A stretch of DNA of 52,899 nucleotides from positions 2,473,314 through 2,526,212 of the forward strand of contig CP070674.1 of assembly GCA_020351995.1 (NCBI GenBank), written 5' to 3'. The number at the start of each line of letters is the position of its first letter. The stretch's first letter is position 1. The notes below the pieces were generated by a model, which saw nothing but the letters and a program-made list of their open reading frames with translations, made no database searches and had not been told where the DNA came from. Shown here one piece after another: positions 2,691-49,491 of the stretch. Both the position numbers and the translations under genes were made by a program. The DNA is from Candidatus Zixiibacteriota bacterium. Its GTDB lineage: Bacteria; Zixibacteria; MSB-5A5; GN15; FEB-12.

Positions 2691-3154
2691 GACTGTTCCT
2701 TCGAAGCAGCCTGGATAGCCTCGACAATCTTCTGATACCCGGTGCAGCGGCATAAATTGCCCGATATGGCCCGGCGAATATCCTTTTCGCCGGGATGTGG
2801 GTTGTCGCGCAACAGTTCCGTGGCCACCATCAGCATGCCCGGTGTGCAAAACCCGCACTGTATCGCGCCGTGATCGACAAAGGCTTGCTGAAGTCGGTTA
2901 AGCTGACCGCTTTCGGTCAGACCTTCGACCGTCTCAATTTCACAACCATCGGCTTGAATGGCCAGCGTTAGACAACTGAACGTGGCCACACCGTCCATCA
3001 ACACCGTGCAGGCACCGCAATCTCCAATGCTACAGCCCTTCTTGGTACCCGTAAAACCCAGATCTTCACGTAACAGGTCCAACAGGTTTCTGCGAGGTTC
3101 AACCGCGACCTCGTGGACAATGCCGTTGACGGTTAATGAAATAATCTTCTTCAT
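2687..3154 (-). CDS. Molybdenum hydroxylase, 2Fe-2S (small) subunit
   Basis: The 155-residue protein has the two-domain layout of CoxS/HcrC-type electron-transfer subunits. The N-terminal plant-type [2Fe-2S] domain has Cys41, Cys46, Cys49 and Cys61 (CSIGDCGAC...C). The C-terminal helical [2Fe-2S] domain has Cys100, Cys103, Cys135 and Cys137 (CGFC...CRC). All eight ligands are present and the length is normal for the family (about 155-165). It carries electrons between the Mo site and the FAD subunit. The start overlaps the stop of the FAD-subunit gene by four bases and its own stop overlaps the start of the Mo subunit, so the three subunits are translationally coupled in the order FAD, FeS, Mo. 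Confidence 0.92.
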   Translation of the reverse strand: MKKIISLTVNGIVHEVAVEPRRNLLDLLREDLGFTGTKKGCSIGDCGACTVLMDGVATFSCLTLAIQADGCEIETVEGLTESGQLNRLQQAFVDHGAIQCGFCTPGMLMVATELLRDNPHPGEKDIRRAISGNLCRCTGYQKIVEAIQAASKEQS

Positions 3155-5031: not shown

Positions 5032-6156
5032 ATGTTCACGAAATTGGTTGACTGGTATGAGAACCGGCATGATTACGCCCGAACGTGGCTTCAGCAGAAT
5101 GACGGCGAAGTCGTGGGCTGTTTCTGCAGTTACGTTCCAGAGGAATTAGTCTACGCCGCCGGGCTCTTGCCGGTAAGAGTGCTTGGCTCCCATGAACCGC
5201 AAGCTGTGACGGAGCCGCACATTTTTGGTATGTTCTGCCCCTTCTGCCGCGACGTCCTCGCCCAGGGCCTGAAGGGCCGCTATAACTATATGAAGGGTAT
5301 CGTGCTGGCTCAATCCTGCCTGCATCTCCGGCAGGCCTTCACGTCTTGGAAAAACCATGTCCCGGCCGACTTCGCCCACTATATCTATTTCCCCAACAAA
5401 GTGCAGACCGAGCACGCCTATCCCTACTATCACGGCGAGATGGTAAAGTTCAAAAAGGCCCTCGAGGAATGGACCGGGCGGACCATCTCCGATGAATCTC
5501 TGAAAGAAGCCGCCGAGCTTTACAATGAGAATCGCCGTCTGATGCGCGAGGTCTACGAGCTTCGCAAAGGCCCTAACCCTCCCGTGACCGGACTGGAAGC
5601 CATGATTATGGTCGCCTCCTCGTTCTTCGTTGACAAGAAAGATCACAACGCCGAATTAAAGCGAATCCTCCCGGAACTGAAATCACGATCCCTCGACCGC
5701 GAGACCGGCGGGCGGCTGATGATCGTCGGATCAGAAAACGACGATACCGAGTTTGTCCAGATGGTCGAATCGGTCGGGGCCACGGTTGTTGTCGATGACC
5801 ACTGCACCGGTTCGCGCTATTTCTGGAACGAAACCGAGTTCAAGGGTGACCTGATGCAGGATATCGCCAATCGCTATATCGACCGCCCTCCCTGCCCGAC
5901 CAAAGACTGGGAAGAACGTAGCCGGTTTCCTCACATTCTGCAACTCGCTAAAGAGTACAATGTCGATGGCGTGATTCTGATTCAGCAGAAGTTCTGTGAC
6001 CCGCACGAATGCGATATGGTCCCTCTCAAGGAATACCTCAATAGCAACGGCTACCCGACTCTGTTCCTTGAGTTCGACGTTACCGTTCCGGTGGGCCAGT
6101 TTAGAATAAGAGTCGAAGCCTTTCTGGAAATGTTTGGCGTGGAAGAACTGTTTTGA
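5032..6156 (+). CDS. bzdN: Benzoyl-CoA reductase, subunit N/C type (BzdN/BcrC-like)
   Basis: The 374-residue protein belongs to the 2-hydroxyacyl-CoA dehydratase D-component family, at the length expected for BcrC/BzdN. The conserved Fe-S cysteines are visible: GCFCSYVPEELVYAAG (Cys30, Cys32), FCPFCRDV (Cys69, Cys72), SCLHLRQ (Cys96), and KFCDPHECD in the C-terminal third. With BzdO it should form the module that binds benzoyl-CoA and carries [4Fe-4S] clusters for the two-electron dearomatisation to cyclohexa-1,5-diene-1-carbonyl-CoA. A strong AGGAGG site precedes the ATG. The order N-O-P-Q and the small P subunit downstream point to the Azoarcus (Bzd) subtype rather than Thauera Bcr. Confidence 0.88.
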   Translation: MFTKLVDWYENRHDYARTWLQQNDGEVVGCFCSYVPEELVYAAGLLPVRVLGSHEPQAVTEPHIFGMFCPFCRDVLAQGLKGRYNYMKGIVLAQSCLHLRQAFTSWKNHVPADFAHYIYFPNKVQTEHAYPYYHGEMVKFKKALEEWTGRTISDESLKEAAELYNENRRLMREVYELRKGPNPPVTGLEAMIMVASSFFVDKKDHNAELKRILPELKSRSLDRETGGRLMIVGSENDDTEFVQMVESVGATVVVDDHCTGSRYFWNETEFKGDLMQDIANRYIDRPPCPTKDWEERSRFPHILQLAKEYNVDGVILIQQKFCDPHECDMVPLKEYLNSNGYPTLFLEFDVTVPVGQFRIRVEAFLEMFGVEELF

Positions 6157-6180
6157 GTCCGTGGGTGAAAAGGAGAATAT

Positions 6181-7491
6181 ATGTCTGAATATAGAGCCGA
6201 ACCTCTGAAATGTTGGCCAAAGGCAAAAGAGTTGCGCCTCAAGTACTATAAAGATTACCAGCAGGCGCGCGAAAAGGGTGGCATCCGGTGGACTGGTGGT
6301 GCCTGGTCTTTCGATGCCATTCCGGCCGGACTGGGCCGTGACGTTTACAATATCACGGGCGAACCTTACGCCGCCTCGGTAGCCTTCGATAAGAAACTGT
6401 CCACCGAGTGTATGGAAGCCACCGAGGCTAAGGGGTGGGCCCGTGACCTGTGTAGCTACATGCGCAACTACTGGGGCTCGATGTACCTCGGCAAATACGC
6501 CTTTGGAGGAGAATACCCCGAACCCGACTTCTGTTTTCAGGATCACATCTGCTGCAGCCACGCCAAGTGGTACCAGCATGTGGCCGAATACAAAAAGATC
6601 CCGTATTTCTGCATCGATGTATCAGTCGGCCCTTACAAAGATGTCGATGAAAACCGCTTGATGTTCGTGGTCAACCAGATGCACGAATCTATCGAGTGGC
6701 TGGAGAAAGTAACTGGTCGCAAATATCAGGATGAGCTTCTAATCGAAGCTGTCGAGAATGAAACCCGGTCAACATCGACTTGGGCGGAGGTCTGTTGCCT
6801 GAACATGAACAAGCCGGCCCCGCTCGATGAGAAAACGATGTATTCACTATATGTCCACGGAACGCTCGCCAAGCACTCCAAAGATGTCGCCGATTTCTAT
6901 GAAGAACTCCGGGACGAAGTGAAGTATCGCGTCGACAATCACATCGCCGCCGTGCCGGGTGAACAGTGCCGATTGATGTCGGACACTCAGCCGCCATGGG
7001 GATTTCTGAAGATCTTCCGTTATCTAGAGAAGTTCGGCGCCGTTTCCATCGGTTCACTTTACACCTTCGGCTTGATTGGCATATGGGAAACCAAGCCCGA
7101 CGGTACCTGGGGACCGAGAACGACCCCGATACAGAAGGGCGAGAAGATCACCACCCGTGACCAGGCCCTCAGGATTCTGGCCGATTGGAATCTCTCCAAG
7201 CCCGAGTGGCAGCACTTCTACGATCCGAATCTCAAAACCGAAATGATGCTCCAGATAGTCAAGCAATGGCAACTGGACGGCGTCATGCTTCATCTCAACC
7301 GCGGATGCGAGGGGCTATCATGCGGAATCATGGAAAATCGTCTCGGTATCGCCAAGACTGGGGTGCCGGTCATGACTTTCGAAGGCAACATGGGCGACGA
7401 GCGCGAGTTCGACGAAGGTCGCACAATGACGAGGATAGACTCTTTCATGGAAACGCTTGGAATCAAGATGCTCGATAAGGCTGCTGGTTGA
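6181..7491 (+). CDS. bzdO: Benzoyl-CoA reductase, subunit O/B type (BzdO/BcrB-like)
   Basis: This 436-residue protein is the partner D-component of BzdN and has the BcrB/BzdO length. It shows the segment [14 protein letters not shown] near residue 37, a [15 protein letters not shown] cysteine region near residue 120, and the C-terminal [17 protein letters not shown] segment that supplies cluster-ligating cysteines. AAGGAG lies just upstream of the ATG, 24 bases after bzdN. Together N and O bind the aromatic thioester and receive electrons one at a time from the P/Q ATPase module. Nothing suggests damage. The closest alternative would be another 2-hydroxyacyl-CoA dehydratase beta subunit, but the paired ATPases and dch/had/oah in the window argue for benzoyl-CoA reductase. 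Confidence 0.88.
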
Positions 7492-7545
7492 GAATTATCA
7501 CTCCGGCAGTGTTGTATAGGAAAAAACGCAATTGGAGGATAAAAG

Positions 7546-8322
7546 ATGATAACAGCCGGGATAGACATGGGCGCCAAATATGTTAAGGTGGTCATTCTCA
7601 AAGACGGCAACATTCAAGGCAAGGCCATGGTAGCCACCGGCTTTGAACCTGCCACTTCAGCTACGGAGTGCCTTAACAAGGCCGCGCAGGAATCCGGTAT
7701 CGAGCTGTCCGCCATCGACCACATTACCTCGACCGGAGCCGGTCGAAAAGCGGCGCCCAATATTAATTCCGATATTACCGATGTTGGAGCGGCCGCCAAA
7801 GGCGTCACCTATTTGAACAAAGACGTGCGTACCGTTATCGATGTCGGTGCCGAGGAAGGCCGTGGCATCAAAGTTGATGGTGACGGTAAGGTTGTCGATT
7901 TTGCTGTCAACGAAAAGTGTGCCGCCGGGGCCGGCGCTTTCGCCGAGGCCATGTCGCGCGCTCTTGAGGTGAGTCTGGACGACTTCGGCAAACTGTCTCT
8001 GCAGTCGGACAAAACCATCCCGATGAACGCGCAGTGCGCGGTGTTTGCCGAAAGTGAGGTGGTGTCACTCGTTCACGCCAAAACACCAAAGCATGATATC
8101 TCGCGCGCCGTCCACGATGCCATCGCCAGCCGCATCGTGTCGATGGTCCGTCGCGTTGGAATCAACAAAGAGGTGGCCCTGGTTGGCGGGGTTTCCCATA
8201 ATCCCGGCTTTGTAGACGCTCTTAACCGGGGACTGGAAACAGAGGTCACCGTCCCTGAAAACCCTGAGTACATCGGCGCCCTCGGAGCCGCCATCGTCGC
8301 TTTAGAGAGGACCAAATCATGA
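7546..8322 (+). CDS. bzdP: Benzoyl-CoA reductase ATPase subunit P (BzdP-like)
   Basis: This is a 258-residue ASKHA-fold ATPase of the BadF/BadG/BcrA/BcrD family. The phosphate-1 motif (AGIDMGAKYVKVV) is at the N-terminus. Cys125 (EKCAAGAGAF) and Cys164 (AQCAVFAESE) are placed to bind the [4Fe-4S] cluster shared with subunit Q. The phosphate-2 region reads DVGAEEGRGIKV instead of the GGQD form found in Q, a divergence I associate with the smaller subunit of class I reductases. The length is close to Azoarcus BzdP and much shorter than Thauera BcrA (about 440), which supports the Bzd subtype. GGAGG precedes the ATG, and the 3' end overlaps bzdQ by four bases. Confidence 0.87.
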   Translation: MITAGIDMGAKYVKVVILKDGNIQGKAMVATGFEPATSATECLNKAAQESGIELSAIDHITSTGAGRKAAPNINSDITDVGAAAKGVTYLNKDVRTVIDVGAEEGRGIKVDGDGKVVDFAVNEKCAAGAGAFAEAMSRALEVSLDDFGKLSLQSDKTIPMNAQCAVFAESEVVSLVHAKTPKHDISRAVHDAIASRIVSMVRRVGINKEVALVGGVSHNPGFVDALNRGLETEVTVPENPEYIGALGAAIVALERTKS

Positions 8323-9203
8323 CTACCGCTACAAAAGAGTACTGGCGCTGGAAAGAATACAACTGGCACGATGAGAACATAGACCCCAAAGGTGCCGAAA
8401 CCATCACCGCCGGCGTCGATATCGGATCGGTCAGCTCACAGGCCGTCGTGATGGTCAACGGCCAGCTCTACGCTTATTCCAACATGCGCACCGGATCGGA
8501 TAGCCCCGACAGCGCCCGAAACGCCATGAACTGGGCCCTCGAGGATACCGGCCTTACTTTGGACGATATCCACTACACCGTCGGGACCGGTTACGGACGT
8601 GTCAACGTTCCCTTTGCCAACCGTGCCATCACCGAGATCGCCTGCCATGCCCGCGGCGGAAACTCCATGTACGGGCCAACCGTGCGTACCATCCTCGACA
8701 TGGGCGGTCAGGATTGCAAGGCTATCCATTGCGATGAAAAAGGTAAGGTCACCAACTTCCTAATGAACGACAAGTGCGCCGCCGGTACCGGGCGCGGAAT
8801 GGAAGTCTTCGCTGACCTCCTCAACGTTTCTATCGAAGACGTCGGTGATATGTCGCTCGATGTCGATGAAGAACCCGAACCGGTTTCATCGACCTGCGTC
8901 GTCTTTGCCAAATCCGAGGCGTCATCGCTGCTTCGTGAAGGCTGGTCGACCAAACGGGTACTCGCGGCCTATTGTTCCGCCATGGCTCACCGTGTCGTCT
9001 CACTGCTTGAACGCATCGGGGTCGAGAAAGACTTCGCTATCACTGGCGGCATCGCCAAAAACAGCGGGGTTGTTACCCGCTTGGAGAAAGAACTGGGCCT
9101 GGTGTCACTGAAGTCGAAATACGATACGCAAATTGCCGGGGGCCTCGGCGCGGCCCTGTTTGCCAAAGCGCTGGTCGAAAAACAGCGCCAGAAAGGTGGT
9201 TGA
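8319..9203 (+). CDS. bzdQ: Benzoyl-CoA reductase ATPase subunit Q (BzdQ-like)
   Basis: This is the second ASKHA ATPase (294 residues). It starts with an N-terminal extension (KEYWRWKEYNWHDEN) before the ATPase fold at about residue 30 (AGVDIGSVSSQAVV). It then has DMGGQDCKAI near 127-136, Cys153 in DKCAAGTGRG and Cys193 in STCVVFAKSE. P and Q would form a heterodimer holding one [4Fe-4S] cluster between the Cys pairs and hydrolyse two ATP per electron pair to push electrons into N/O. The gene is translationally coupled to bzdP (ATGA) and to the ferredoxin that follows (TGATG). Confidence 0.88.
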   Translation: MTTATKEYWRWKEYNWHDENIDPKGAETITAGVDIGSVSSQAVVMVNGQLYAYSNMRTGSDSPDSARNAMNWALEDTGLTLDDIHYTVGTGYGRVNVPFANRAITEIACHARGGNSMYGPTVRTILDMGGQDCKAIHCDEKGKVTNFLMNDKCAAGTGRGMEVFADLLNVSIEDVGDMSLDVDEEPEPVSSTCVVFAKSEASSLLREGWSTKRVLAAYCSAMAHRVVSLLERIGVEKDFAITGGIAKNSGVVTRLEKELGLVSLKSKYDTQIAGGLGAALFAKALVEKQRQKGG

Positions 9204-9484: not shown

Positions 9485-9564
9485 GTGGGAACGGGCATTA
9501 ATTCCGCCGATTCCCTTGGGCACCTCATCGCCAGAGGGTGTCGCTGCCGTATATCAGGAGAACT

Positions 9565-16266: not shown

Positions 16267-17475
16267 ATGGAAAAATCAGCAGCAATGTTTGCCAACGCCA
16301 GGATTCCTTACGGTACCTGGGGTAGCAGCTTCTTCCCGGCCTGGCAAATGTCTGCTCTGGCGGAAGTTAATATTGGCCAGTTTGCCGGGGAGGCCATGAA
16401 TAGAATAATGGGACTCAGAAAAGTCCCCATCGACGTTCTCGAGTATCTCATAATTGGATCAACCATTCCGTGGCACTGGAAATTCTGGACCGCCCCCCTG
16501 GTCGCCAGTTGCATGGATCACAGAATTCCCGGCTACCATATGGAACAAGCCTGTGCCACCGGTCTCCAGGCCGTTATACTGGCGGCCGCCGAAATACAGG
16601 CAGGCTCGAAAGAAGTCGTCGGTGTTCTTACCTTTGACAGAACCAGTGATTCACCTGTTGGCGTCTTTCCGGAACGGCGTGCGCATCGACGCACCGAGGT
16701 CCTTGCCGACGTTTGGGATAATTTTGGATTCGACCCTGCTACCGGCCGAGCCATGATAGGGTGTGCCGGTCTGGCGGCCAGAAAGTATAAAACCGACCGA
16801 AAAGAGGTTGATGAACTGGCCTTTTATCGCTACGATCAATATTTCAAAGCAAAAGATTCCGGCTTTCTTGACCGTGTCCTCGTTCCGCTGGATGTACTCA
16901 ATGTTCAGGGCCGATTCCTTGGCCGCATTGACTCCGACGCCGGTGTTCGCAAGCTGACCTTGGAAGGATTGAGGGCCATGCCCGAGCTCGATACCTGCGT
17001 CACCGGCGGGACCCAGACCCATGCCTCCGACGGCATGGCCACACTGCTGGTGACCACTAAAGAAAAAGCCCGTGAACTGAGTCCCCGACCGGACATCGAT
17101 ATCCAGTTTGTGGGCAAAATCGACATCAGAACCGATCCCAGCCTGATGCCCGAGGCTCCTGCTCTGGCTGTCCAGCAACTGCTGGAGAAAACCGGTCTGA
17201 CCATGGCCGACATGACGGTCGTGAAAAACCACAATCCTTTCGCGGTTAATGATGTTATCTTCGCAAAGGTCCTCGACTACGACTGGCACAGGATGAATGA
17301 AACCGGTTGCCCACTCGTCTGGGGCCATCCTCAGGGACCGACCCTCACGCGAGTCATAATCGAGGCTTTCGAAGAAGCCGTGTCACTCGGCGGCGGCTAC
17401 GTCCTGATCTTCGGCTGCGCGGCCGGCGATGTCGGCATTGCGGCTATCTTCAAAGTAGCGGACGGAGGGAAATAA
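16267..17475 (+). CDS. Thiolase (acetyl-CoA C-acyltransferase family)
   Basis: The 402-residue thiolase has the nucleophilic Cys in MEQACATGLQAV near residue 96, the His-containing NHNPFAVNDV segment near 322, and the C-terminal GCAAGDVG Cys. The usual GHPIGATG loop is altered to GHPQGPTLTR. It would cleave a 3-oxoacyl-CoA, plausibly 3-oxopimelyl-CoA or acetoacetyl-CoA formed after ring opening. A clear AAGGATCAG site precedes the ATG. It starts a new same-strand gene run after a 205-base gap and is followed within two bases by the dehydrogenase/hydratase fusion, so the two probably work in sequence. The substrate is inferred. Confidence 0.85.
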   Translation: MEKSAAMFANARIPYGTWGSSFFPAWQMSALAEVNIGQFAGEAMNRIMGLRKVPIDVLEYLIIGSTIPWHWKFWTAPLVASCMDHRIPGYHMEQACATGLQAVILAAAEIQAGSKEVVGVLTFDRTSDSPVGVFPERRAHRRTEVLADVWDNFGFDPATGRAMIGCAGLAARKYKTDRKEVDELAFYRYDQYFKAKDSGFLDRVLVPLDVLNVQGRFLGRIDSDAGVRKLTLEGLRAMPELDTCVTGGTQTHASDGMATLLVTTKEKARELSPRPDIDIQFVGKIDIRTDPSLMPEAPALAVQQLLEKTGLTMADMTVVKNHNPFAVNDVIFAKVLDYDWHRMNETGCPLVWGHPQGPTLTRVIIEAFEEAVSLGGGYVLIFGCAAGDVGIAAIFKVADGGK

Positions 17476-19601: not shown

Positions 19602-20846
19602 ATGAGTGAAGAAAAAAAGCCTGCCATTAAGAAAATTCAGGCCACCGGCCAGATGCGAAAAATAATGGCCGATTACTTTTATGAATTAGACGCGGCCGCC
19701 CGCGATGACTCGAAAAAGGTTGCCTGGTGCACCAGCGTCGGCCCCGCTGAACTTCTGCTTAGTTTCGGTTTTCATGTATATTACCCCGAAAATCATGGCG
19801 CTATGCTTGGGGCCACCCGCATGGCTAATGATTTTATTCCTGTTGCCAACGCCATCGGGTATTCGCCGGATATCTGCTCTTACCTGACTTCCGATATCGG
19901 GTCTTTCATCAAGAAAGAAACACCCCTCTCAAAAGCTTACGAAGGAATTGAGGGCGTCCCCAAACCCGATGTGCTGGTCTTTAATACCAATCAGTGCCGT
20001 GATGTTCAGGATTGGCTCTCATGGTACGCGAGAGAATTAAACGTTCCCATCATGGGCGTCTCCACTTTCCGCAACATCGGCGAGATGACCGACGAAGTCC
20101 TGGCGGGAATTGTCCAGCAAATAAAGGATTTGATTCCAAAGCTGGAAAAGATATCCGGCAACAAGTTCGATATCGACAAATTCCGCGAGGTCCTGGCTCT
20201 CTCCAAGAAATGTACCGAGATGTGGAGAGATGTAGTCGAGACAATGGTGGCTCGCCCGTCCCCGATGAGCTTCTTTGACGCTACCATTCATATGGGCCCG
20301 GCGGTCGTCCTCAGGGGATCAGAGACTGCCGTACAGTATTACGAAACACTTCATGCGGAACTGAAACAACGAATAAAAGACGGTATCGGAGCCGTAGAAG
20401 ATGAAAAGTACCGCCTGTACTGGGAAGGCATGCCCATCTGGGGCAAACTCAGAGAAATGTCCGAGTTGTTTATCGGGTTGAAGACCGCCGTCATCCCCTC
20501 GACTTACTGTAATAGCTGGATTTTCAATGCCTTTGACCCGGCCGATCCCTTCTTGAGCATGGCCCGTGCCTACACCGAAATCTTTATCGTCAGGGACGAG
20601 AACTTTAAAGAAAAGTACATCGAGGACATTGTCAAAAGATACAAGCTCGATGGAATCCTGTTCCATGATGCCAAAACCTGTCCGAATAATTCGAACAACC
20701 GCTACGGCATGCCCGAACGCCTCGAGAAACGGTTGAACATTCCTACCCTGACTATTAACGGTGATCTCAATGACCTGCGCTGTTATTCGGAGGAACAGAC
20801 CAGGACCAACATTGAGGCATTTATCGAGCAGCTGCAGGCAAAATAG
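19602..20846 (+). CDS. Single 2-hydroxyacyl-CoA dehydratase-family reductase subunit (possible double-cubane protein)
   Basis: The 414-residue protein belongs to the HgdB/BcrB/BcrC family. The three canonical cluster cysteines are Cys43 (AWCTSVGPAELLLSFG), Cys92 (DICSYLTSDIG) and Cys360 (DAKTCPNNSNNRYGMPE). Cys132 (NQCRDVQDW), Cys204, Cys303 and Cys394 are additional. There is no second D-component beside it; the next gene is its ATPase activator. A lone D-component with its own activator is the layout of YjiM/YjiL and of the [Fe8S9] double-cubane cluster proteins, as opposed to heterodimeric benzoyl-CoA reductase or 2-hydroxyglutaryl-CoA dehydratase. AAGGAG precedes the ATG. The substrate is unknown. 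Confidence 0.82.
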   Translation: MSEEKKPAIKKIQATGQMRKIMADYFYELDAAARDDSKKVAWCTSVGPAELLLSFGFHVYYPENHGAMLGATRMANDFIPVANAIGYSPDICSYLTSDIGSFIKKETPLSKAYEGIEGVPKPDVLVFNTNQCRDVQDWLSWYARELNVPIMGVSTFRNIGEMTDEVLAGIVQQIKDLIPKLEKISGNKFDIDKFREVLALSKKCTEMWRDVVETMVARPSPMSFFDATIHMGPAVVLRGSETAVQYYETLHAELKQRIKDGIGAVEDEKYRLYWEGMPIWGKLREMSELFIGLKTAVIPSTYCNSWIFNAFDPADPFLSMARAYTEIFIVRDENFKEKYIEDIVKRYKLDGILFHDAKTCPNNSNNRYGMPERLEKRLNIPTLTINGDLNDLRCYSEEQTRTNIEAFIEQLQAK

Positions 20847-20875
20847 GAAACTTTGCCCGCCGGGAACGTGAAATT

Positions 20876-21673
20876 ATGAATAACCAGCCGGAGAACTTTG
20901 TGGGAATTGATGTTGGCGCCTCCACCACCAAGGCGATAATCATCAATGCGGATAAAGAAATCCTTGTATATTCTGTAAATAACACCGGCGCCGACTACGG
21001 TGCCGCTGCGGAAAAAGCCTTTGCGAATGCCTGCCGCCAGGCCGGCACCAAAGGCTCCGACCGTTACCTCGTTATGGCCACCGGCTACGGAAAAAGAAAT
21101 GTTCCCCGCGCCGACGATACTAAAACCGAAATCAGCTGCCATGCCAGGGGCGCATTCCATTATTTTCCTAAGGACCATACCCTGATTGACATCGGTGGGC
21201 AGGACAACAAGATCGTGAAAACCGACAGGTCCGGTAAGCGCGTCAATTTCAAGATGAATCGCAAGTGTGCCGCCGGTACAGGTGCCTTTCTCGAAGAGAT
21301 TGCCTACCGCCTCGATATAAAAATGGATAAACTCAATCAACTGGCCGAGAAAGCGCAGCACGATGTTCACATCGGCAGTTACTGCACCGTTTTTGCCGCC
21401 ACTGAAATCCTGGCCCGCATAAGAGAAGGAGCTAAAGTCGAGGATATTGTCAAAGGTATCTTCGGCTCCGTGGTAAAACGGGTTCTTGAAATGGATACCA
21501 TGGACGGCAATGTCGTCATGACCGGCGGTGTGGTCGCCTACAACCCTTTTCTGGTCTCGATGTTCGAAGAAAAAATTGGAAGAAAGATATTCGTACCCCC
21601 GCACCCTCAGTTTACTGGTGCCCTCGGGGCAGCCCTGTATTCGTTAGAAAGTAAAGGAGGAATAAATGCTTGA
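20876..21673 (+). CDS. ASKHA ATPase activator of the adjacent 2-hydroxyacyl-CoA dehydratase-family protein
   Basis: The 265-residue HgdC/YjiL-type activase has GIDVGASTTKAIII at the N-terminus, DIGGQDNKIV near 105-114, Cys131 in RKCAAGTGAF and Cys170 in GSYCTVFAATE, then the VMTGGVVAYN adenosine motif. The two cysteines of each monomer would hold a bridging [4Fe-4S] cluster in a homodimer. It lies 29 bases after the lone D-component and should drive ATP-coupled electron transfer into it. The 3' end overlaps the ADP-forming CoA synthetase by eight bases, which ties the reductase pair to acyl-CoA chemistry. It is clearly a different paralogue from BzdP and BzdQ. Confidence 0.87.
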   Translation: MNNQPENFVGIDVGASTTKAIIINADKEILVYSVNNTGADYGAAAEKAFANACRQAGTKGSDRYLVMATGYGKRNVPRADDTKTEISCHARGAFHYFPKDHTLIDIGGQDNKIVKTDRSGKRVNFKMNRKCAAGTGAFLEEIAYRLDIKMDKLNQLAEKAQHDVHIGSYCTVFAATEILARIREGAKVEDIVKGIFGSVVKRVLEMDTMDGNVVMTGGVVAYNPFLVSMFEEKIGRKIFVPPHPQFTGALGAALYSLESKGGINA

Positions 21674-23756
21674 CGGCCTGTTCAAGCCCAGATCGGTCGC
21701 TATTATCGGCGCCTCAAACAACCCGCTGAGTATCGGCCATATCGTCATTCAAAACCTTGTCGACCACAATTTCCAGGGACCCATCTATCCGATCAACCCC
21801 AAATCAAAATACATCAAAAGCTTTAAAACCTACGCTGCCGTGAGTGAGGTCCCCGATGAAGTCGATCTCGTCAACATCTCCATCAAAAATACCCTCGTAC
21901 CGACCGTTCTCGAGGATTGCGGCAAGGCCGGTGTGAAGTACGCCATTGTCCACACCGCCGGATTCAAAGAGGTCGGCGAAGAAGGATTGAAGCTGGAGAA
22001 ACACATCGTTGAAATAGCTCACAAATACGGCATGCGAATTTACGGACCCAACTCCCAGGGAATCCAGAATTCTGACCCCGCTGTGTCTGTTTATGCCAAT
22101 TTTACCTTTGTGCCCATGAGGCCTGGCAACATCTCCATCGTCGCTCAAAGCGGTGGGGTAGGGGAAACCCTTAAGTTGCATCTACACCGAATCGGCATGG
22201 GCATGCGCATGTACGCCAGCTTCGGTAACGAGGCCGACGTCAGCATGAACGAAATCATCGATTACTACGGCCAGGATGATGACACCAAGGTCATCATGGT
22301 TCACATAGAAACTCTCAAAGATCCCGCTGGCTTTCTCGAAGTCGCCAGTCGCGTTACCAAAAAGAAACCCATTCTAGTGGTCAAGACTGGCAGAACCAAA
22401 GAAGGTGTCAAGGCCGTCGCTTCGCATACCGGATCCTTGATTGAACAGGATACTCTGGCCGATGCCATCTTCGAAAAAAGTGGTGTCCTTCGCTTCTACT
22501 CCCAGCAGGATATGATCGAGGCCGCCATCGCTTTTTCCACCCAGCCGGTACCGCAATCCGAGAATATAGTAATCGTTACCAATACCGGTGGCCCGGCTAT
22601 CATAGCTGTTGATGAATGTATATCGAAAGGTTTGAAACTGGCCCAGTTGAGCCCCGAAACAGGCAAGGCACTGGGTGAGCTTCTTTTCTCCGAGGCTATC
22701 GTATCCAACCCGGTCGATGTCATCGCTACCGCCGGGGCCAAGGAGTACGGGGGAACGGTAGAGGCGCTGCTCAAGGATCCTAATATCGACTCGCTTATTC
22801 TCAACTTTGTAACGCCGCCCTTCGTGGACTGCGAAGCTGTCGCCTGCAAACTTGCCGAGATAGGAGCGGCCGCTCAAAAACCGATAATCTGTATCATTCT
22901 CACTATAGAAGAAAGATGGGGCGAGGTGATCCGTCTGGTCAGGCAAAGCGGCATCCCCGTATATGACTTTGCCGAATCGGCGTCCAAAGCTCTCGCCGCC
23001 ATGATTAAGTACGGTCAGATTCAAAAGCGGCCGACGCCGGAGTTAAAGGAACTGCCATGTGACAAGAAAAAGGCCGAAGGCATCATCAGCCGCTACAGCG
23101 GGCAGGATCGGTTCCTGCCGCAGGCCGATGTCTTCGAACTTCTGAACGCCTATGGTCTCCCGGCAGTCAAAACGGTCCGCGTCGAGACTAAAGATGAACT
23201 TAAAAAAGAGGCTCAAAAACTCAACTACCCGCTGGTCTTGAAAATCGATGCTGAAGAAGTCGTTCATAAGTCTGATGCCGGCGGCGTTGTCCTCAATCTC
23301 AAGGATGAAACCGACCTGCTGGCTGCGTTTGATAACATGGCTAATACTTTCAAGAAATACAAGCCGGCCTTTGTGGTACAGGAACAACTCGTCGAAGGTA
23401 AAGAAATCATCATGGGTGCTAAAGCCGGTGAGGGTATCAGCCCGATGATCATGTTCGGCCTTGGCGGTGTTTTTGTTGAAACCCTGAAAGACGTACAGTT
23501 CCGACTGGCCCCGCTTTCACAAGCCGAGGCCAATGACATGATTCAATCCATAAAGGGGTATCCTATTCTCCAGGGAGCGCGAGGTGAGAAGCCGGCCGAT
23601 ACCGACTTGACAGCCGAGATGCTCATGCGGCTCTCCCAGCTTGCTTCCGATTTTCCGGAGATTGATGAGATGGATCTGAATCCGGTTTTTGTGTTTGAGA
23701 AAGGCAACGGTGCCCGGGTAGTTGATGCTCGACTGAAAGTAAGAAATCTCGGGTAG
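21666..23756 (+). CDS. ADP-forming acyl-CoA synthetase (acetate-CoA ligase, ADP-forming type)
   Basis: This 696-residue single-chain NDP-forming acyl-CoA synthetase carries fused alpha and beta parts. The N-terminal CoA-binding domain begins with SVAIIGASNNP. The ligase-CoA domain follows, with the phosphohistidine His254 in VASHTGSLIEQD. The C-terminal ATP-grasp domain starts near 470 and has VVHKSDAGGVVLNL with the second His. The enzyme interconverts acyl-CoA + ADP + Pi with acid + ATP, so it can conserve energy from a CoA ester or activate an acid cheaply. AAAGGAGGAATAA precedes the ATG. The substrate could be acetate, another pathway product or an aromatic acid; the sequence does not decide. 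Confidence 0.88.
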   Translation: MLDGLFKPRSVAIIGASNNPLSIGHIVIQNLVDHNFQGPIYPINPKSKYIKSFKTYAAVSEVPDEVDLVNISIKNTLVPTVLEDCGKAGVKYAIVHTAGFKEVGEEGLKLEKHIVEIAHKYGMRIYGPNSQGIQNSDPAVSVYANFTFVPMRPGNISIVAQSGGVGETLKLHLHRIGMGMRMYASFGNEADVSMNEIIDYYGQDDDTKVIMVHIETLKDPAGFLEVASRVTKKKPILVVKTGRTKEGVKAVASHTGSLIEQDTLADAIFEKSGVLRFYSQQDMIEAAIAFSTQPVPQSENIVIVTNTGGPAIIAVDECISKGLKLAQLSPETGKALGELLFSEAIVSNPVDVIATAGAKEYGGTVEALLKDPNIDSLILNFVTPPFVDCEAVACKLAEIGAAAQKPIICIILTIEERWGEVIRLVRQSGIPVYDFAESASKALAAMIKYGQIQKRPTPELKELPCDKKKAEGIISRYSGQDRFLPQADVFELLNAYGLPAVKTVRVETKDELKKEAQKLNYPLVLKIDAEEVVHKSDAGGVVLNLKDETDLLAAFDNMANTFKKYKPAFVVQEQLVEGKEIIMGAKAGEGISPMIMFGLGGVFVETLKDVQFRLAPLSQAEANDMIQSIKGYPILQGARGEKPADTDLTAEMLMRLSQLASDFPEIDEMDLNPVFVFEKGNGARVVDARLKVRNLG

Positions 23757-23913: not shown

Positions 23914-25326
23914 ATGAATTGGATTCCTCTCAGCATCGTCTGCGTTTATGTCGTTTTGCTCTATTTAATCACCTGGCTCACTCGCCGTCTCAGCCGGGGA
24001 GGCATGATAGCTTACCTTCTGGCCGGGCGCAGCCTGCCCTTCTGGGTAATAGCTCCGCTGTTGACTGGCTTGGCTATTGGCGGTGCCTCCACCATCGGCG
24101 TTGCCGAGCGAGCCTATTCTGTCGGTATCTCCGCCGGGTGGTACAATGCTGCCTGGGCAGCCGGTGCCTTGCTGGTGGGCCTCTTCGCCGCCCATCGCTA
24201 CCGCCGACTCGAAATTACCACTCTCCCGGAACTCTTCGAGAAACACTACAGCGTATCCGGACGAGTCATCGGCGCTGTCGGGCAGATCGTCCTGCAGTTA
24301 ATTATCACGTCGCTTCAATACGTGGCCGGCGGTGCGATTCTGTCATCGCTCTTGCCCGACATCTTTACCTTCCAGACGGGAATGCTGGTAACCGCCATTG
24401 TCTTTGTTGGCATCACCCTCATCGGCGGTTTCTGGGCTGCCGGACTGACAAATATCATAAATGTCATTCTTATCTATGCCGGAGTGGCTCTCGGAGCGGT
24501 TATGGCCGTTATCAAAGTGGGCGGCTTCAACAAAATTGTGGCTAGACTTCCCGTAGAACATCCCGGCTTCGACCTCGCCGCCATCGGATGGGGGCTCATC
24601 ATCGCCTGGTTTGTGGTCATGTGCACCACTGTCTTTTCTGTGCAGTCGATAGTGCAGATAAGTTTCGGTGCCAAAGACTCGGGCGCCGCCAGAAAAGGCT
24701 TTCTACTGGGAGCCGCGATGATCTTCCCGGTCGGCTTCATCAGCGCCATCATCGGTGTCGCCGCGGCCATACTTCATCCTGATATCATCGCCACCGAGGC
24801 CCTGCCTCGTACGGTACTAAGCCTCAGCCCGGTCGTCGCCGGCGTTATCCTGGCTGGCCTGTGGGCTGCCGATGTCTCCACCGCGTCAGCCTTGCTGGTT
24901 GGAAGCGCCACTCTCGTGTGCGGTGATCTGATCAAGAGATTCGTGGCACCGGACCTCAGTGAAAAACGCGAACGAATAATCTCCCGCGTTTCCGTTCTGG
25001 TCCTGAGTGTCTTTACATACATAATGGCCGTCTCTATCTCCGGAATTCTCAAAACCCTGCTTATCGGCCTCACCCTCACCACCGCCTACACGCTCGTGAC
25101 CCTGATGACCCTCTTCTGGCCCAAACTGTGCCGACGCTCGCACGCTACGTGGACGCTTATCATGTCGATGGTAGCCCTGGCCGCTTGGCTCATCTTCCCT
25201 CAGATTCAATCTCTCTTCAGGCAGATAAGCCTCCCGCATCCTATCTTCTTCTGCTGGGCCGTATGTTTAATCACATTTCTGACTGTCCTCATCTTTGACA
25301 GAAGAAAGATAAAGGTGGGCACCTGA
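23914..25326 (+). CDS. Sodium:solute symporter (SSS family)
   Basis: The 470-residue membrane protein has about 13 predicted hydrophobic segments and the SSS family pattern. LLAGRSLPFWVIAPLLTGLAIGGASTIG (shown in shortened form here: LLAGRSLP, then GGASTIGVAERAY) forms the region after TM1. TLPELFEKHYS and the sodium-site helix around SIVQISFGAKD follow. It would import an organic acid with Na+. Placement between the CoA synthetase and benzoyl-CoA pathway genes suggests an aromatic or short carboxylate. It lies 157 bases after the synthetase and 42 before the next gene. Confidence 0.87.
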   Translation: MNWIPLSIVCVYVVLLYLITWLTRRLSRGGMIAYLLAGRSLPFWVIAPLLTGLAIGGASTIGVAERAYSVGISAGWYNAAWAAGALLVGLFAAHRYRRLEITTLPELFEKHYSVSGRVIGAVGQIVLQLIITSLQYVAGGAILSSLLPDIFTFQTGMLVTAIVFVGITLIGGFWAAGLTNIINVILIYAGVALGAVMAVIKVGGFNKIVARLPVEHPGFDLAAIGWGLIIAWFVVMCTTVFSVQSIVQISFGAKDSGAARKGFLLGAAMIFPVGFISAIIGVAAAILHPDIIATEALPRTVLSLSPVVAGVILAGLWAADVSTASALLVGSATLVCGDLIKRFVAPDLSEKRERIISRVSVLVLSVFTYIMAVSISGILKTLLIGLTLTTAYTLVTLMTLFWPKLCRRSHATWTLIMSMVALAAWLIFPQIQSLFRQISLPHPIFFCWAVCLITFLTVLIFDRRKIKVGT

Positions 25327-25368: not shown

Positions 25369-26331
25369 ATGGCTGAAAATACCGGTGGTCATCAGTTGCG
25401 TGCTGCAGTGGTTGGTATGGGGCCAGTCGGCACCATCCTCGCTGCGCATCTCATCGATGCCGGGGCGCACGTGGTGCTGTGCGACATCGACCATGAAAGA
25501 ATCGACCGGATGAAAGACGACGGAATCCGCCTGGAGCAGACGATTGAAAAAACGGTCGACGTTGCCGATGGTTGTTACTCGATCTCGGACTTAAAGCAGT
25601 TCGACCTGGACCTCATAGCCGTCGCCGTAAAGACCCCGACCCTCGCAATAATAATCCCTAAGATTGCGGAAATCACCTCTGATAAAATGTTCGTTATGTG
25701 TGTCCAGAATGGTTTGGATAACGAACTGGAAATCGCCAGGACTCTCGGTGAAAGTAAAACCCTGCGTTTCTCCATCAATTACGCCGGCGGAATGAGCGCG
25801 CCAAGCGCGGTCAAGGTCACTTTCTTCAATCCGCCCAACTATATAGCTGCCCTCACGAGAGAGGGCGATGCAATCGCGGCCGAAATCGCCCGGCTTCTCA
25901 CGTCGGCGGGTCTGGAAACCAAAGTCCCTGAAAACATTCGTGACCATATCTGGATAAAAGCCATCTTGAACTCGGCCCTTTCTCCTGTCTGCGCTATCAC
26001 CGGACTGACCATGAAAGAAGTCACCGACCATGAACTGGGTCTTAAGCTCGTGACAGCGCTGATCGATGAATCGGTACGCGTGGCCGAAGCTGAAGGGCTT
26101 AAATTCGACGAGGGGTTCAAGGAGTTCTGCCTGAAATATCTGAAGGGCGGCGGGTACCACCGTCCTTCCATGTGGGTTGATCTGGATGCCGGCCTGCCTA
26201 CTGAGATTGACTTTCTCAACGGAAGAATCGCGTATTATGGACGAAAGCATGGCCTGCCCACACCCTATAATGACACCATTACTGCTCTGGTCCATATGCT
26301 GGAACTGTCGTCTAAGAATCAGGAAAAATAA
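25369..26331 (+). CDS. Ketopantoate reductase (ApbA/PanE)-family dehydrogenase
   Basis: The 320-residue protein has an N-terminal Rossmann motif (AVVGMGPVGTILAAHL), a VQNGLDNELEIA segment of the PanE substrate loop, and the C-terminal helical domain (DHIWIKAILNSALSPVCAITG) with the Lys/Asn/Ser residues of the family. Formal family function is NADPH reduction of 2-dehydropantoate to pantoate. No other pantothenate genes are nearby, and it sits between a symporter and the benzoyl-CoA genes in the same transcription direction (30 bases before had). A role on a 2-oxo or 3-oxo acid in the aromatic pathway, or in CoA supply, are both possible. GGAGATAATC precedes the ATG. Confidence 0.8.
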   Translation: MAENTGGHQLRAAVVGMGPVGTILAAHLIDAGAHVVLCDIDHERIDRMKDDGIRLEQTIEKTVDVADGCYSISDLKQFDLDLIAVAVKTPTLAIIIPKIAEITSDKMFVMCVQNGLDNELEIARTLGESKTLRFSINYAGGMSAPSAVKVTFFNPPNYIAALTREGDAIAAEIARLLTSAGLETKVPENIRDHIWIKAILNSALSPVCAITGLTMKEVTDHELGLKLVTALIDESVRVAEAEGLKFDEGFKEFCLKYLKGGGYHRPSMWVDLDAGLPTEIDFLNGRIAYYGRKHGLPTPYNDTITALVHMLELSSKNQEK

Positions 26332-26361
26332 AATTTGATTAGTATCCCGCAGGAGGAATCA

Positions 26362-27417
26362 ATGAAAGAAATACTCGCCTATCAAATGACCGAAAAAGAC
26401 AAGCCCTTCGAAAAGACGGCTATACCTGTACCCGAACTGAGCGAGGGTGACGCTCTGGTTGAGATCGCCGGGTGTGGTGTCTGTCACACCGATCTGAGCT
26501 TCTGGCATTATGGGGTTCCCACCCGTCATGAGCTTCCGCTGGTATTGGGACATGAAATCAGCGGCACCGTTATCGCAGGTCCGTCACAATGGAAGGGTAA
26601 ACCGGTTATCATACCTGCCGTGTTGCCGTGCGGCGAATGCGAACTGTGCAAAGGCGACCGTAGTAATATCTGTCAGAATCAGAAAATGCCCGGCAACGAT
26701 TTCCACGGCGGCTTCGCCAGCCACGTCGTGGTACCATCGAGATTCCTCGCCGAAGTGCCCGATGCGGCCCTGGCGGGCCATACTCTCGCGGAGCTTTCCG
26801 TGATAGCCGATGCCGTTTCTACTCCATATCAGGTTATTGTCAAAAGTGAACTGAAGCCGGGCGACCTTGCCATCGTCATCGGTGTTGGTGGTGTTGGCAT
26901 CTATGCCGCCCAATTGGCCCATATCATGGGCGCGAAAGTGCTCGCCATCGACATAGCCCAGGAAAAACTGGACCAGCTTGCCGAGTTCGGGGTCACCTCA
27001 ACCATCAACTCCAAAGGCCTTGACATAAAAGAAATCAAAAATCAAGTCAAGGGCGCTGGAAAACAACTGGGAACGTCGCGCTTCGGTTGGAAAATCTACG
27101 AAATGTCCGGAACCAAAGCCGGCCAGGAACTGGCCTTTGCTCTTCTGGGCATTGCCGGCTCGGTCTCTATCGTTGGCTTCACTTTAGACAAACTGGAAGT
27201 GCGCCTGAGCAATCTCATGGCCTTCGATGGACAGGTAATCGGAACCTGGGGATGCAAACCGGAACTCTACGCCGATGTGATAAAACTCACAGCCGATGGC
27301 AAACTGAAACTGAAACCCTTTACAGCTACCTTCCCTCTGTCACAGATAAACGATATCTTTCAACAGACACTGGAACACAAGCTGTTAAAGAGGTCGGTCC
27401 TGACACCAGACTTTTAG
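26362..27417 (+). CDS. had: 6-hydroxycyclohex-1-ene-1-carbonyl-CoA dehydrogenase (Had, BzdX type)
   Basis: This 351-residue zinc-type medium-chain dehydrogenase has the catalytic zinc region GCGVCHTDLSFWHYG, the GHEISG motif, the structural zinc Cys set CGECELCKGDRSNIC, and the NAD motif IGVGGVGIYAAQ. The FWHYGVPTRHELPLVLGHE region and the genes next door (oah, dch) identify it as the enzyme that oxidises 6-hydroxycyclohex-1-ene-1-carbonyl-CoA to the 6-oxo compound with NAD+. I choose ATG 26362 behind a strong AGGAGGAATCA site over the in-frame TTG 27 bases upstream. Confidence 0.87.
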   Translation: MKEILAYQMTEKDKPFEKTAIPVPELSEGDALVEIAGCGVCHTDLSFWHYGVPTRHELPLVLGHEISGTVIAGPSQWKGKPVIIPAVLPCGECELCKGDRSNICQNQKMPGNDFHGGFASHVVVPSRFLAEVPDAALAGHTLAELSVIADAVSTPYQVIVKSELKPGDLAIVIGVGGVGIYAAQLAHIMGAKVLAIDIAQEKLDQLAEFGVTSTINSKGLDIKEIKNQVKGAGKQLGTSRFGWKIYEMSGTKAGQELAFALLGIAGSVSIVGFTLDKLEVRLSNLMAFDGQVIGTWGCKPELYADVIKLTADGKLKLKPFTATFPLSQINDIFQQTLEHKLLKRSVLTPDF

Positions 27418-27493
27418 AATTGCCGGTAAGACTGTCTGGCTAATATAAAGAAAAGTTGAATTAACAATTTTTATCGAAATAGGAGATACGCAA

Positions 27494-28579
27494 ATGAGCA
27501 AAAATCTAATCAGTCACAATCTGGTGGAAGTCGACTTCAAGGAAATCATATACGAACTGCGACCGTGTCTGGACATGAACGGCCAGCCGGTTAAAGGATT
27601 ATACAATGCCTGGATACTCCTCAATAACCCGAAACAGTACAACTCATACACCACCGACGCCGTCAAGGAAGTCATCCTTGCCTTCAGGCAGGCCTCAAAT
27701 GACCGTTCAGTCGTAGCTGTGGTCTTTACCGCGGTGGGCGACAAGGCCTTCTGCACCGGCGGCAATACCAAGGAGTACGCGGAGTACTATGCTGGACGAC
27801 CGCTGGAATACAAGCAGTACATGCGCCTGTTCAACGACATGATTACATCTATTCTAATGTGCGACAAGCCGGTCATCTGCCGCGTAAACGGTATGCGCAT
27901 TGCCGGTGGCCAGGAGATTGGAATGGCTTGCGACTTTACTGTCGCCAGCGACCTCGCTGTATTTGGCCAGGCCGGACCCAAACACGGCAGTGCCCCTGAT
28001 GGAGGAAGTACCGATTTCCTGCACCTCTTCGTCGGTATCGAGCGCGCCATGCAGAGCTGTACCCTGTGTGAAATGTGGAGCGCGTACGAGGCTAAAAATA
28101 ACGGACTTATCACCGAGGCGATACCGGTTCTCAAGGTTGATGGCAAGTTCGTGCGCAACCCGATGGTCATCACTGATCGCTGGCTCGATGAATCAGGCGC
28201 TGTCGTTTACGGCAAGAACAAATCGGGCGATGACCGGGCTGCCGCCAAAGAAGTCTTGACCGGAGGAACCGTCGATCTGGCCCCGCTGGACAAGTACGTG
28301 GAATCCTTGTGCACGAAAATGATGTATCTCATGCCCGATTGCGTCAACAAGACACTTAACAGTCTCAGAAAAAAGAAACTTGAGCATTGGGACAGAAATC
28401 AGCAGTCCAACCGTGACTGGCTGGGACTGAACATGATGACCGAGGCCAAAGCCGGGTTCCGGGCGTTCAACGAAGGTCCCAAGGGAAACAGGGAAGTGGA
28501 CTTCATCAAGCTCCGCACCATGCTTTCTGAAGGACACCCGTGGGACGATGAGCTTCTTAACGCTATTTTGCCAGGGTAA
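27494..28579 (+). CDS. oah: 6-oxocyclohex-1-ene-1-carbonyl-CoA hydrolase (Oah, BzdY/BamA type)
   Basis: The 361-residue crotonase-family ring-opening hydrolase is longer than ordinary hydratases, as expected. Diagnostic segments include ILLNNPKQYNSYTTDAVKE, AFCTGGNTKEYAEYYAG, VNGMRIAGGQEIGMACDFT, GQAGPKHGSAPDGGSTDFL and LGLNMMTEAKAGFRAFNEG. These are the conserved regions used to trace bamA genes across anaerobic aromatic degraders. It adds water and cleaves the ring of 6-oxocyclohex-1-ene-1-carbonyl-CoA to 3-hydroxypimelyl-CoA. AGGAGATACGCAA precedes the ATG, and dch follows after five bases. Confidence 0.95.
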   Translation: MSKNLISHNLVEVDFKEIIYELRPCLDMNGQPVKGLYNAWILLNNPKQYNSYTTDAVKEVILAFRQASNDRSVVAVVFTAVGDKAFCTGGNTKEYAEYYAGRPLEYKQYMRLFNDMITSILMCDKPVICRVNGMRIAGGQEIGMACDFTVASDLAVFGQAGPKHGSAPDGGSTDFLHLFVGIERAMQSCTLCEMWSAYEAKNNGLITEAIPVLKVDGKFVRNPMVITDRWLDESGAVVYGKNKSGDDRAAAKEVLTGGTVDLAPLDKYVESLCTKMMYLMPDCVNKTLNSLRKKKLEHWDRNQQSNRDWLGLNMMTEAKAGFRAFNEGPKGNREVDFIKLRTMLSEGHPWDDELLNAILPG

Positions 28580-28584
28580 GTGTT

Positions 28585-29361
28585 ATGGCTGATAAGATCT
28601 TGATTGAATCCCTGCACGATGGTCAGGTCGTCTCGCTGACGTTGAACGCGCCCAAGGCCAATGTTCTCGACGCCGAGATGATGACCGACCTGCAGAAGGC
28701 CCTCGATGGCCTGGCTGAACAACCTGACGTCAAAATCGTGACATTCACCGGTGCTGGCGATCACTTTAGTTTTGGCGCCAGCGTACCTGAACACACCAAA
28801 GAAAAAGCCCCGGAAATGCTCCGGCAGTTCCATGGCTTGTTCTATGCTCTCGCCGATCTGGCCATACCGACTGCCGCCCTCATATCGGGCCAATGTCTCG
28901 GCGGCGGGATGGAACTTGCCCTGATGTGCAATTTTCTCTTCGCCGACAAATCGGCCAAACTCGGCCAGCCGGAAATCCAGCTCGGTGTCTTTGCGCCGCC
29001 TGCTTCGTTACTTCTGGCAATGAAAATCGGTCAGGCAAAAGCCGATGACCTCCTGCTCACTGGAAGAGCCGCGTCGGCCGACGAAGCCCACGCTATGGGA
29101 CTGGTGGCGCAGGTCTTCGAGGACCGCGAGTCAATGATGGCTGGTGTCGAAGCCTGGGCCGAAAAACACATCCTGCCCAGGAGCGCGTCCTCACTGAGAT
29201 ACGCCGTGAAAGCGGCGCGGCTGGAATTCAACAATGTCGTCAAAAACAAACTCCAGCAGCAGGAAAGAATGTATCTCGATGAATTGATGGCTACTCACGA
29301 CGCCAACGAAGGAATTCAATCGTTCCTCGAACGGCGCAAACCGGAATGGAAAAACGAGTAA
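28585..29361 (+). CDS. dch: Cyclohexa-1,5-diene-1-carbonyl-CoA hydratase (Dch, BzdW type)
   Basis: This 258-residue crotonase-fold enzyme hydrates the cyclic diene made by benzoyl-CoA reductase to 6-hydroxycyclohex-1-ene-1-carbonyl-CoA. The HFSFGASVPEHTKEKA segment is characteristic of Dch, and the oxyanion-hole region SGQCLGGGMELALMCNF and GQPEIQLGVFAPPAS follow in standard order. It is the last plus-strand gene of the run, ends at a bidirectional hairpin terminator, and completes the set dch-had-oah. The gene order here is had-oah-dch. Confidence 0.9.
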   Translation: MADKILIESLHDGQVVSLTLNAPKANVLDAEMMTDLQKALDGLAEQPDVKIVTFTGAGDHFSFGASVPEHTKEKAPEMLRQFHGLFYALADLAIPTAALISGQCLGGGMELALMCNFLFADKSAKLGQPEIQLGVFAPPASLLLAMKIGQAKADDLLLTGRAASADEAHAMGLVAQVFEDRESMMAGVEAWAEKHILPRSASSLRYAVKAARLEFNNVVKNKLQQQERMYLDELMATHDANEGIQSFLERRKPEWKNE

Positions 29362-32641: not shown

Positions 32642-32689
32642 AATCACACACGAATCCGGCGTCATTACCGATAGGACAGGTATCAACCC

Positions 32690-49328: not shown

Positions 49329-49491
49329 CGGTCTTTCCTGCGGATAAAAAGTCTTCGTAACTCGGGTTCCCACTACGGACAATGCCGGGCCTCTCTTAGA
49401 AACGGCAGTCGCCGCGCAACCTTTTACTAAAATCTTCGTAGACCATAGATTAACGGGAACATAATCAATTACAGAACCGGGAGTGTGTAGC

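Follow-up and report, generated by a model that had tools for sequence, protein, structure and literature searches.

A candidate one-subunit 2-hydroxyacyl-CoA dehydratase module in a benzoyl-CoA gene cluster of Candidatus Zixiibacteriota

Introduction

To our knowledge, the radical dehydratases of the HGD-D superfamily all need two different HGD-D subunits. The Had system of Clostridioides difficile also has a CoA-transferase, HadA, and the phenyllactyl-CoA dehydratase of Clostridium sporogenes (Fld) is said to combine two HGD-D subunits with a CoA transferase in a reductive fermentation. Here, we describe a three-gene locus of a Candidatus Zixiibacteriota bacterium (contig CP070674.1) in which an HGD-D protein is encoded without a partner. 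It lies in a stretch of 52 899 nucleotides, referred to below as the window, and consists of the lone protein (HGD), an ATP-dependent activase (ACT) and an ADP-forming acyl-CoA synthetase (ACS). The reading that we favour, with a probability of about 0.6, is that the triplet forms a one-subunit (R)-2-hydroxyacyl-CoA dehydratase with its activator and an ATP-saving acyl-CoA ligase, probably for aryl-lactyl-CoA; we infer both the substrate and the reaction.

Family placement of HGD

All three open reading frames are intact, and the 3' end of ACT and the 5' end of ACS share eight bases, as a first-pass annotation made from the DNA letters had noted. HGD matches the Pfam family HGD-D (7e-65) and ACT matches BcrAD_BadFG (3.5e-55), while ACS carries ATP-grasp_5, Succ_CoA_lig and CoA_binding, the set of domains expected of an ADP-forming acyl-CoA synthetase. 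ACT also matches HadI (PDB entry 4eht; 3e-55), and a set of 81 sequences shows both of its cluster cysteines, C131 and C170, to be conserved. This bears out the earlier proposal that HGD is followed by a homodimer-type activator of its own.

The nearest solved sequences to HGD are HadB (the best), MbdO and BzdO. The NCBIfam models score 222 bits for HadB, 174 for BcrB, 95 for BzdO and 59 for double_cubane, all under the equivalog cut-offs (350 for double_cubane), and HGD also falls far under those of TIGR02260 and TIGR03191. The AlphaFold model (pLDDT 91.5) superposes best on HadB (TM score 0.89–0.90), followed by MbdO and BzdO (0.86–0.87), DCCP (0.76–0.78) and subunits of the HadC/BzdN/MbdN type (0.66–0.73). 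In a quick tree, with SH-aLRT values as its only support and BzdO on a long branch, the lone proteins are united in a single clade (100%) within the group of catalytic subunits HadB, BzdO and BcrB, and this group is split from DCCP, YjiM, BzdN, HadC and BcrC with 100% support. As judged from sequence and predicted fold, HGD is thus placed with the catalytic (alpha-type) subunits HadB, BzdO and BcrB.

Cysteines and active-site residues

The seven cysteines of HGD lie at positions 43, 92, 132, 204, 303, 360 and 394, as listed in the first-pass annotation. Across 40 orthologs only five of them never change (C43, C92, C132, C303 and C360); C204 and C394 vary. C92, C132 and C360 align with C95, C128 and C380 of BzdO, which are the ligands of its [4Fe-4S]-OH2 cluster (PMC11971306), and with the same three cluster cysteines of HadB. 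The alignment therefore replaces the ligand trio implied earlier (Cys43, Cys92 and Cys360) by C92, C132 and C360. S45 and E63 are invariant and align with Ser44 and Glu65 of BzdO and with the Ser/Glu pair of HadB, and the position of BzdO His131 is occupied by Val in HGD, as it is in HadB.

The other two invariant cysteines lead towards the double-cubane proteins. C303 shares its alignment column with a double-cubane cysteine of BzdN, DCCP and YjiM, and C43 is one residue off another such column, the two positions corresponding to two of the three distal-cubane columns; no other catalytic-type subunit in the alignment has a cysteine at either of them. In BzdO, Trp46 and the substrate ring fill the space of the lost sub-cluster (PMC11971306). 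At the position aligned nearest to this Trp, the lone family has a short residue, Thr or Ser, and Gly47 close to it never varies.

The first-pass annotation had assigned HGD to the YjiM or double-cubane type, and had asked for its seven cysteines to be mapped onto DCCP and YjiM. Four of the double-cubane columns are indeed shared and C43 is one residue off a fifth, whereas the sixth has no cysteine. Up to five of the six cysteines could be counted in this way (C92, C132, C360, C303 and the near-column C43), and HGD resembles DCCP in being one subunit with one activase. We nevertheless consider a low-potential reductase of the DCCP/YjiM type most improbable: besides the missing sixth cysteine, the tree and the fold group HGD with HadB and BzdO, and the double_cubane score is far under its threshold (59 bits against 350). 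On the tree, the TM score and that cysteine we reject membership of the DCCP/YjiM family, although C43 and C303 leave some of the idea standing.

These two residues could also belong to something new. It is possible, if doubtful, that the lone subunit holds a novel iron–sulfur site built from all five invariant cysteines and that, in the Desulfobacterota, it serves an alternative to the Pad pathway. The site at C92/C132/C360/C43/C303 would then be a cluster intermediate between [4Fe-4S]-OH2 and [8Fe-9S], or a thiol pair, and the single subunit would both store the electron and catalyse, so that a second subunit would be dispensable. The accompanying route would run from phenylacetyl-CoA through carboxylation by IorAB to phenylpyruvate, and on to phenyllactyl-CoA, cinnamoyl-CoA and benzoyl-CoA.

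Absence of a second subunit

The dehydratase that we favour would be complete without a partner. In the host genome (a single contig of 3.6 Mb, estimated to be 96.6% complete) the only HGD-D genes are those of BzdN, BzdO and HGD, and no HgdB/HadC-type partner is encoded anywhere in it. HGD is the sole HGD-D gene in the closed chromosomes CP070825 and CP070727 (genomes G135 and G137), in the drafts G140 and G143 and in G069 (97% complete). It follows that HGD truly lacks a partner and that this is characteristic of the family, in agreement with the first-pass description of a lone HGD-D protein. HGD is not an HgdB/FldC-type subunit with its partner encoded elsewhere, but a partnerless protein of the catalytic alpha type. 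The same search corrects the count of systems: what had been called a third ATP-driven reductase system is not a third one in this genome, the HGD-D components of the host being confined to Bzd and the HGD system. Apart from those of Bzd and ACT, the activase domains of the host are confined to two giant proteins of 1411 and 1409 residues (G000:C1:42033-46736 and 2148686-2153383; L006–L010), each with two BcrAD_BadFG domains; neither protein is connected with the HGD module.

Elsewhere, a second HGD-D gene is found in the flanks of five of the 97 loci that were compared, and in four of these (L028, L108, L110 and L111) it is part of a bzd or bcr cluster. The paralogs of HGD in Desulfococcus multivorans belong to the DCCP and YjiM clades only; such paralogs occur in sulfate reducers at L190 and L202 (D. 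multivorans, genome G160) and at L114 (Desulfonema magnum). HGD might still recruit a second subunit, either BzdN or a different HGD-D protein: the BzdN gene is only ∼13 kb away in the window and ten of the 11 HGD-containing genomes of the host phylum also have a benzoyl-CoA reductase. This is very improbable in our judgement, as HGD stands alone in G135, G137 and G069 and D. multivorans could offer only its DCCP/YjiM-clade proteins. By analogy with DCCP, HGD is probably a homodimer onto which ACT docks. No account of an alpha-type dehydratase with a single subunit turned up in the accessible literature, which lay mostly outside subscription journals.

Distribution and gene context

A scan of GTDB genomes gave 80 loci (the best of 457) with 63–87% identity to HGD over almost the whole protein; they come from Zixiibacteriota, Aminicenantes, Desulfobacterota, Acidobacteria, Thermoplasmata, Chloroflexi and further groups. 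A search of the order of D. magnum found orthologs in 86 of 389 genomes, and identities across the many phyla are mostly 56–87%. ACT is near HGD in 90 of the 97 loci. ACS accompanies HGD in 56 and an AMP-forming ligase does so in 31, so that 74 loci have a CoA ligase of one kind or the other nearby. A D-2-hydroxyacid dehydrogenase, either of the PanE type or of the FAD/FeS GlcD-CCG type, is found in 52, and β-oxidation genes (thiolase or dehydrogenase-hydratase) in 30. The recurrence of the pair or triplet in ∼97 loci of many phyla, which the first-pass annotation had suggested looking for, shows that the grouping is not due to chance. Directly upstream of HGD at L030 (2815-8340) and L044, from Delongbacteria and Neomarinimicrobiota, there are genes for a POR-type 2-oxoacid:ferredoxin oxidoreductase.

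In a subgroup with 48–50% identity, HGD is again accompanied by PanE and an activase; it lies between the bcr genes and had/oah/dch in G057 and adjoins the bcr genes in G117. Within the host phylum, ten of the 11 genomes with HGD have a class I benzoyl-CoA reductase, as do 15 of the 72 that lack HGD (p = 1e-5 with no correction for kinship; the 15 were counted by eye from paired HGD-D matches).

Several loci of Desulfobacterota share the order iorA-iorB-paaK-PanE-ACT-HGD-ACS-AMP ligase, mostly with a thiolase next (L087, L180 and L181, and largely L178 and L182). In D. magnum, a protein with a pair of ACT domains (the domain of that name, not the activase) adjoins PanE and has a relative in D. 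multivorans; proteins of this kind often sense amino acids. In D. multivorans itself HGD, ACT and PanE lie together at 2.791–2.794 Mb (2791060-2794190), in a stretch that also holds genes for two AMP ligases, a TRAP transporter, a thiolase and a dehydrogenase-hydratase. This locus falls inside the published '2.77 Mbp' clusters. According to PMC5109826, the organism grows on phenyllactate, the proteins of these clusters are formed on phenylacetate and phenylpyruvate, genes for 'phenyllactate to phenylpyruvate' are assigned to them and the route to benzoyl-CoA is left unclear. Judged by gene order, the three proteins would fit Dmul_C24850-70. The position of an ortholog in a phenylpyruvate/phenylacetate cluster is the strongest outside evidence for aryl-lactyl-CoA.

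Genes around the triplet in the window

The features of the window are collected in Table 1. The thiolase and the 694-residue protein are 5' of HGD, and the PanE-family enzyme is 3' of the triplet. The thiolase has invariant catalytic residues C96, H354 and C384. The 694-residue protein has the same domain order as the 679-residue dehydrogenase-hydratase of the D. multivorans cluster and spans the alignment of 3-hydroxyacyl-CoA dehydrogenase plus enoyl-CoA hydratase in a profile comparison (97.3%, E 1.8e-11); its AlphaFold model is of low confidence (pLDDT 54) and matches to the FadB-type fold were used only together with that comparison. K197, N114 and E279 of the PanE-like protein are conserved in 26 sequences, and we take these Lys, Asn and Glu residues to be the catalytic residues of the ketopantoate reductase family.

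Table 1. Positions of the features discussed, numbered from the first nucleotide of the window.
Feature	Position	Strand	Remarks
Molybdenum hydroxylase	315..4185	-	Large subunit nearest to 4-hydroxybenzoyl-CoA reductase alpha
BzdNOPQ class I benzoyl-CoA reductase	5032..9203	+	Separate system
Divergent thiolase	16267..17475	+	Family of Desulfobacterota arylpyruvate-cluster thiolases, 36-40% identity
Divergent 3-hydroxyacyl-CoA dehydrogenase/enoyl-CoA hydratase fusion, 694 aa	17478..19562	+	Assigned by profile comparison
HGD, lone 2-hydroxyacyl-CoA dehydratase-family protein, 414 aa	19602..20846	+	Predicted HadB/BzdO/BcrB-type catalytic subunit
ACT, homodimer-type ATP-dependent activase, 265 aa	20876..21673	+	HadI/HgdC/MbdQ-like; C131 and C170 conserved
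ACS, ADP-forming acyl-CoA synthetase, 696 aa	21666..23756	+	Assigned by domain content
Sodium:solute symporter family protein	23914..25326	+	Repeatedly adjoins the triplet
Ketopantoate-reductase-family (PanE-like) protein	25369..26331	+	Proposed 2-oxoacid/(R)-2-hydroxyacid oxidoreductase
Had, Oah and Dch	26335..29361	+	Ring-modification and ring-opening enzymes acting after benzoyl-CoA reduction

The large subunit of the molybdenum hydroxylase scores 849 bits against the 4-hydroxybenzoyl-CoA reductase model, under the cut-off of 994.55. MobA-like, XdhC and YqeB genes at 32015-34287 (YqeB, for selenium-dependent molybdenum hydroxylase maturation, with 294 bits and above its cut-off) suggest a special cofactor maturation for this enzyme. 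Molybdopterin synthesis genes (moaB-, moaA-, moaC-, MOSC- and moeA-like) occupy 12431-16061, between bzd and the HGD module. Following bzdNOPQ, at 9538-12102, is an iron–sulfur/NAD(P)H oxidoreductase of 854 residues (Fer2, Fer4, Pyr_redox, gltD-like), a candidate BzdV-like ferredoxin reductase that is again found near HGD in relatives. The right end of the window encodes two ankyrin-repeat proteins (42631-44883 and 49483-51606), which are unrelated to the HGD module.

Proposed pathway and substrate

The neighbouring genes, the D. multivorans cluster and the genes of the window together suggest that the substrates are 2-hydroxyacids formed from aromatic amino acids. We propose that a 2-oxoacid, the arylpyruvate of Phe or Tyr, would be reduced by the PanE-like enzyme to an (R)-2-hydroxyacid and that ACS, if it runs in this direction, would convert the latter into its CoA ester at the cost of one ATP, giving ADP. 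By analogy, ACT would hydrolyse ATP and deliver one low-potential electron to the [4Fe-4S] cluster of HGD, with C92, C132 and C360 as the predicted ligands. In HGD, the thioester carbonyl would become a ketyl radical, hydroxide would leave to the cluster and the electron would be recycled, as for HadBC and BzdNO (PMC11971306), to give a cinnamoyl-type enoyl-CoA. The 694-residue dehydrogenase/hydratase and the thiolase could then produce (4-hydroxy)benzoyl-CoA and acetyl-CoA, and the molybdenum enzyme, BzdNOPQ, Dch, Had and Oah would complete the degradation. The module probably feeds benzoyl-CoA rather than being a further ring reductase. The tie to the benzoyl-CoA cluster drawn in the first-pass annotation is real, though probably in this supplying role, and of the ATP-dependent reduction or dehydration of a CoA ester that it had left side by side, dehydration is the better supported half.

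HGD does share a catalytic superclade with BzdO and BcrB and is located inside benzoyl-CoA gene clusters, and it could on these grounds be an ATP-dependent aromatic acyl-CoA reductase, removing the hydroxyl group of hydroxybenzoyl-CoA reductively or acting as a second ring reductase. We think this unlikely, given that HGD has no BzdN-type electron-storing partner, has Val in place of His131, is surrounded by 2-oxoacid and β-oxidation enzymes, none of them phenol-specific, and is found in closed genomes that lack a class I benzoyl-CoA reductase pair.

A one-subunit 2-hydroxyacyl-CoA dehydratase could also be drawn from the sequence, tree and fold for a non-aromatic substrate, such as a lactyl or branched-chain acyl group, with the benzoyl-CoA cluster only loosely related. 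Many of the loci in Aminicenantes, Acidobacteria and Thermoplasmata are free of aromatic-degradation genes in their flanks, which suits this alternative. It is nevertheless rather unlikely in view of the synteny with IOR, PaaK and ACT-domain genes, the phenylpyruvate cluster of D. multivorans, the co-occurrence of benzoyl-CoA reductase in the host phylum and the very high conservation of HGD, which suggests a single class of substrate.

Several observations weigh against a one-subunit dehydratase for aryl-lactyl-CoA. All of the characterised dehydratases of the HGD-D family that we know of have two different subunits, and a HadB-like mechanism leaves the invariant C43 and C303 unexplained. The flanks of many loci, among them loci of Aminicenantes, are devoid of aromatic genes, so that different clades may have different substrates or the substrate range may be wider. 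Only 13 of the 97 loci have IOR or PaaK genes (a raw count over the flanks examined). No IOR alpha subunit scored above the cut-off in the host genome, where the search gave weak POR-type matches only; we therefore do not claim a phenylacetate branch for the host, and raise such a branch, through IorAB in reverse, purely as a hypothesis. A search of the literature, mostly outside subscription journals, returned nothing relevant on the carboxylation of phenylacetate to phenylpyruvate.

On balance, the HGD module is most likely a one-subunit variant of the known two-subunit dehydratase family, with aryl-lactyl-CoA as the likely substrate. A widespread and strongly conserved form of this kind would mean that these enzymes can dispense with the second subunit, and would give a simpler system in which to study ATP-driven ketyl-radical chemistry. 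The HGD module is a candidate for the gap in sulfate reducers between phenylpyruvate or phenylacetate and benzoyl-CoA without Pad enzymes that is stated in PMC5109826. For the benzene degrader BzS1, the same chemistry was proposed in 2026, with cinnamoyl-CoA formed by a 'yet unassigned dehydratase' (PMC13416013); HGD is a candidate for this step, and the same paper mentions a singular gene, 30% identical to FldB, that is possibly a relative. The occurrence of the module in uncultured Zixibacteria, Aminicenantes and Thermoplasmata suggests that aromatic amino acids in anoxic sediments share a common route.

Comparison with known systems

The D. multivorans 2.77 Mbp clusters share with the window the HGD ortholog, ACT, the PanE-like reductase, the dehydrogenase-hydratase and the thiolase, but have AMP-forming ligases in place of ACS and a class II (Bam) benzoyl-CoA reductase; a dehydratase role is not put forward in the available portions of PMC5109826. 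DCCP and E. coli YjiM resemble the HGD system in pairing one HGD-D protein with one activase, but form a clade of their own, have six cysteines with an [8Fe-9S] cluster and reach TM scores to HGD of only 0.76–0.78. The class I benzoyl-CoA reductases (BzdNO, MbdON and BcrBC) have the superfamily, the three cysteines of the catalytic subunit and the overall fold in common with HGD. They require a gamma subunit with [8Fe-9S] (BzdN in the solved structure), whereas HGD has no partner and keeps the equivalent of BzdO Glu65 but not that of His131. FldABC/FldI corresponds to HGD in the proposed reaction and class of substrate; unlike Fld, the HGD module would use one subunit, a ligase and an oxidative route to benzoyl-CoA. 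HadBC/HadI (PDB entries 3o3m and 4eht) differs in having a HadC-type beta subunit, in lacking the two extra invariant cysteines of HGD and in its CoA-transferase, for which the HGD module has ADP- or AMP-forming CoA ligases. HadB is 28% identical to HGD (TM score 0.89–0.90), and the two systems have in common the three cluster cysteines, the Ser/Glu pair and a HadI-type activase.

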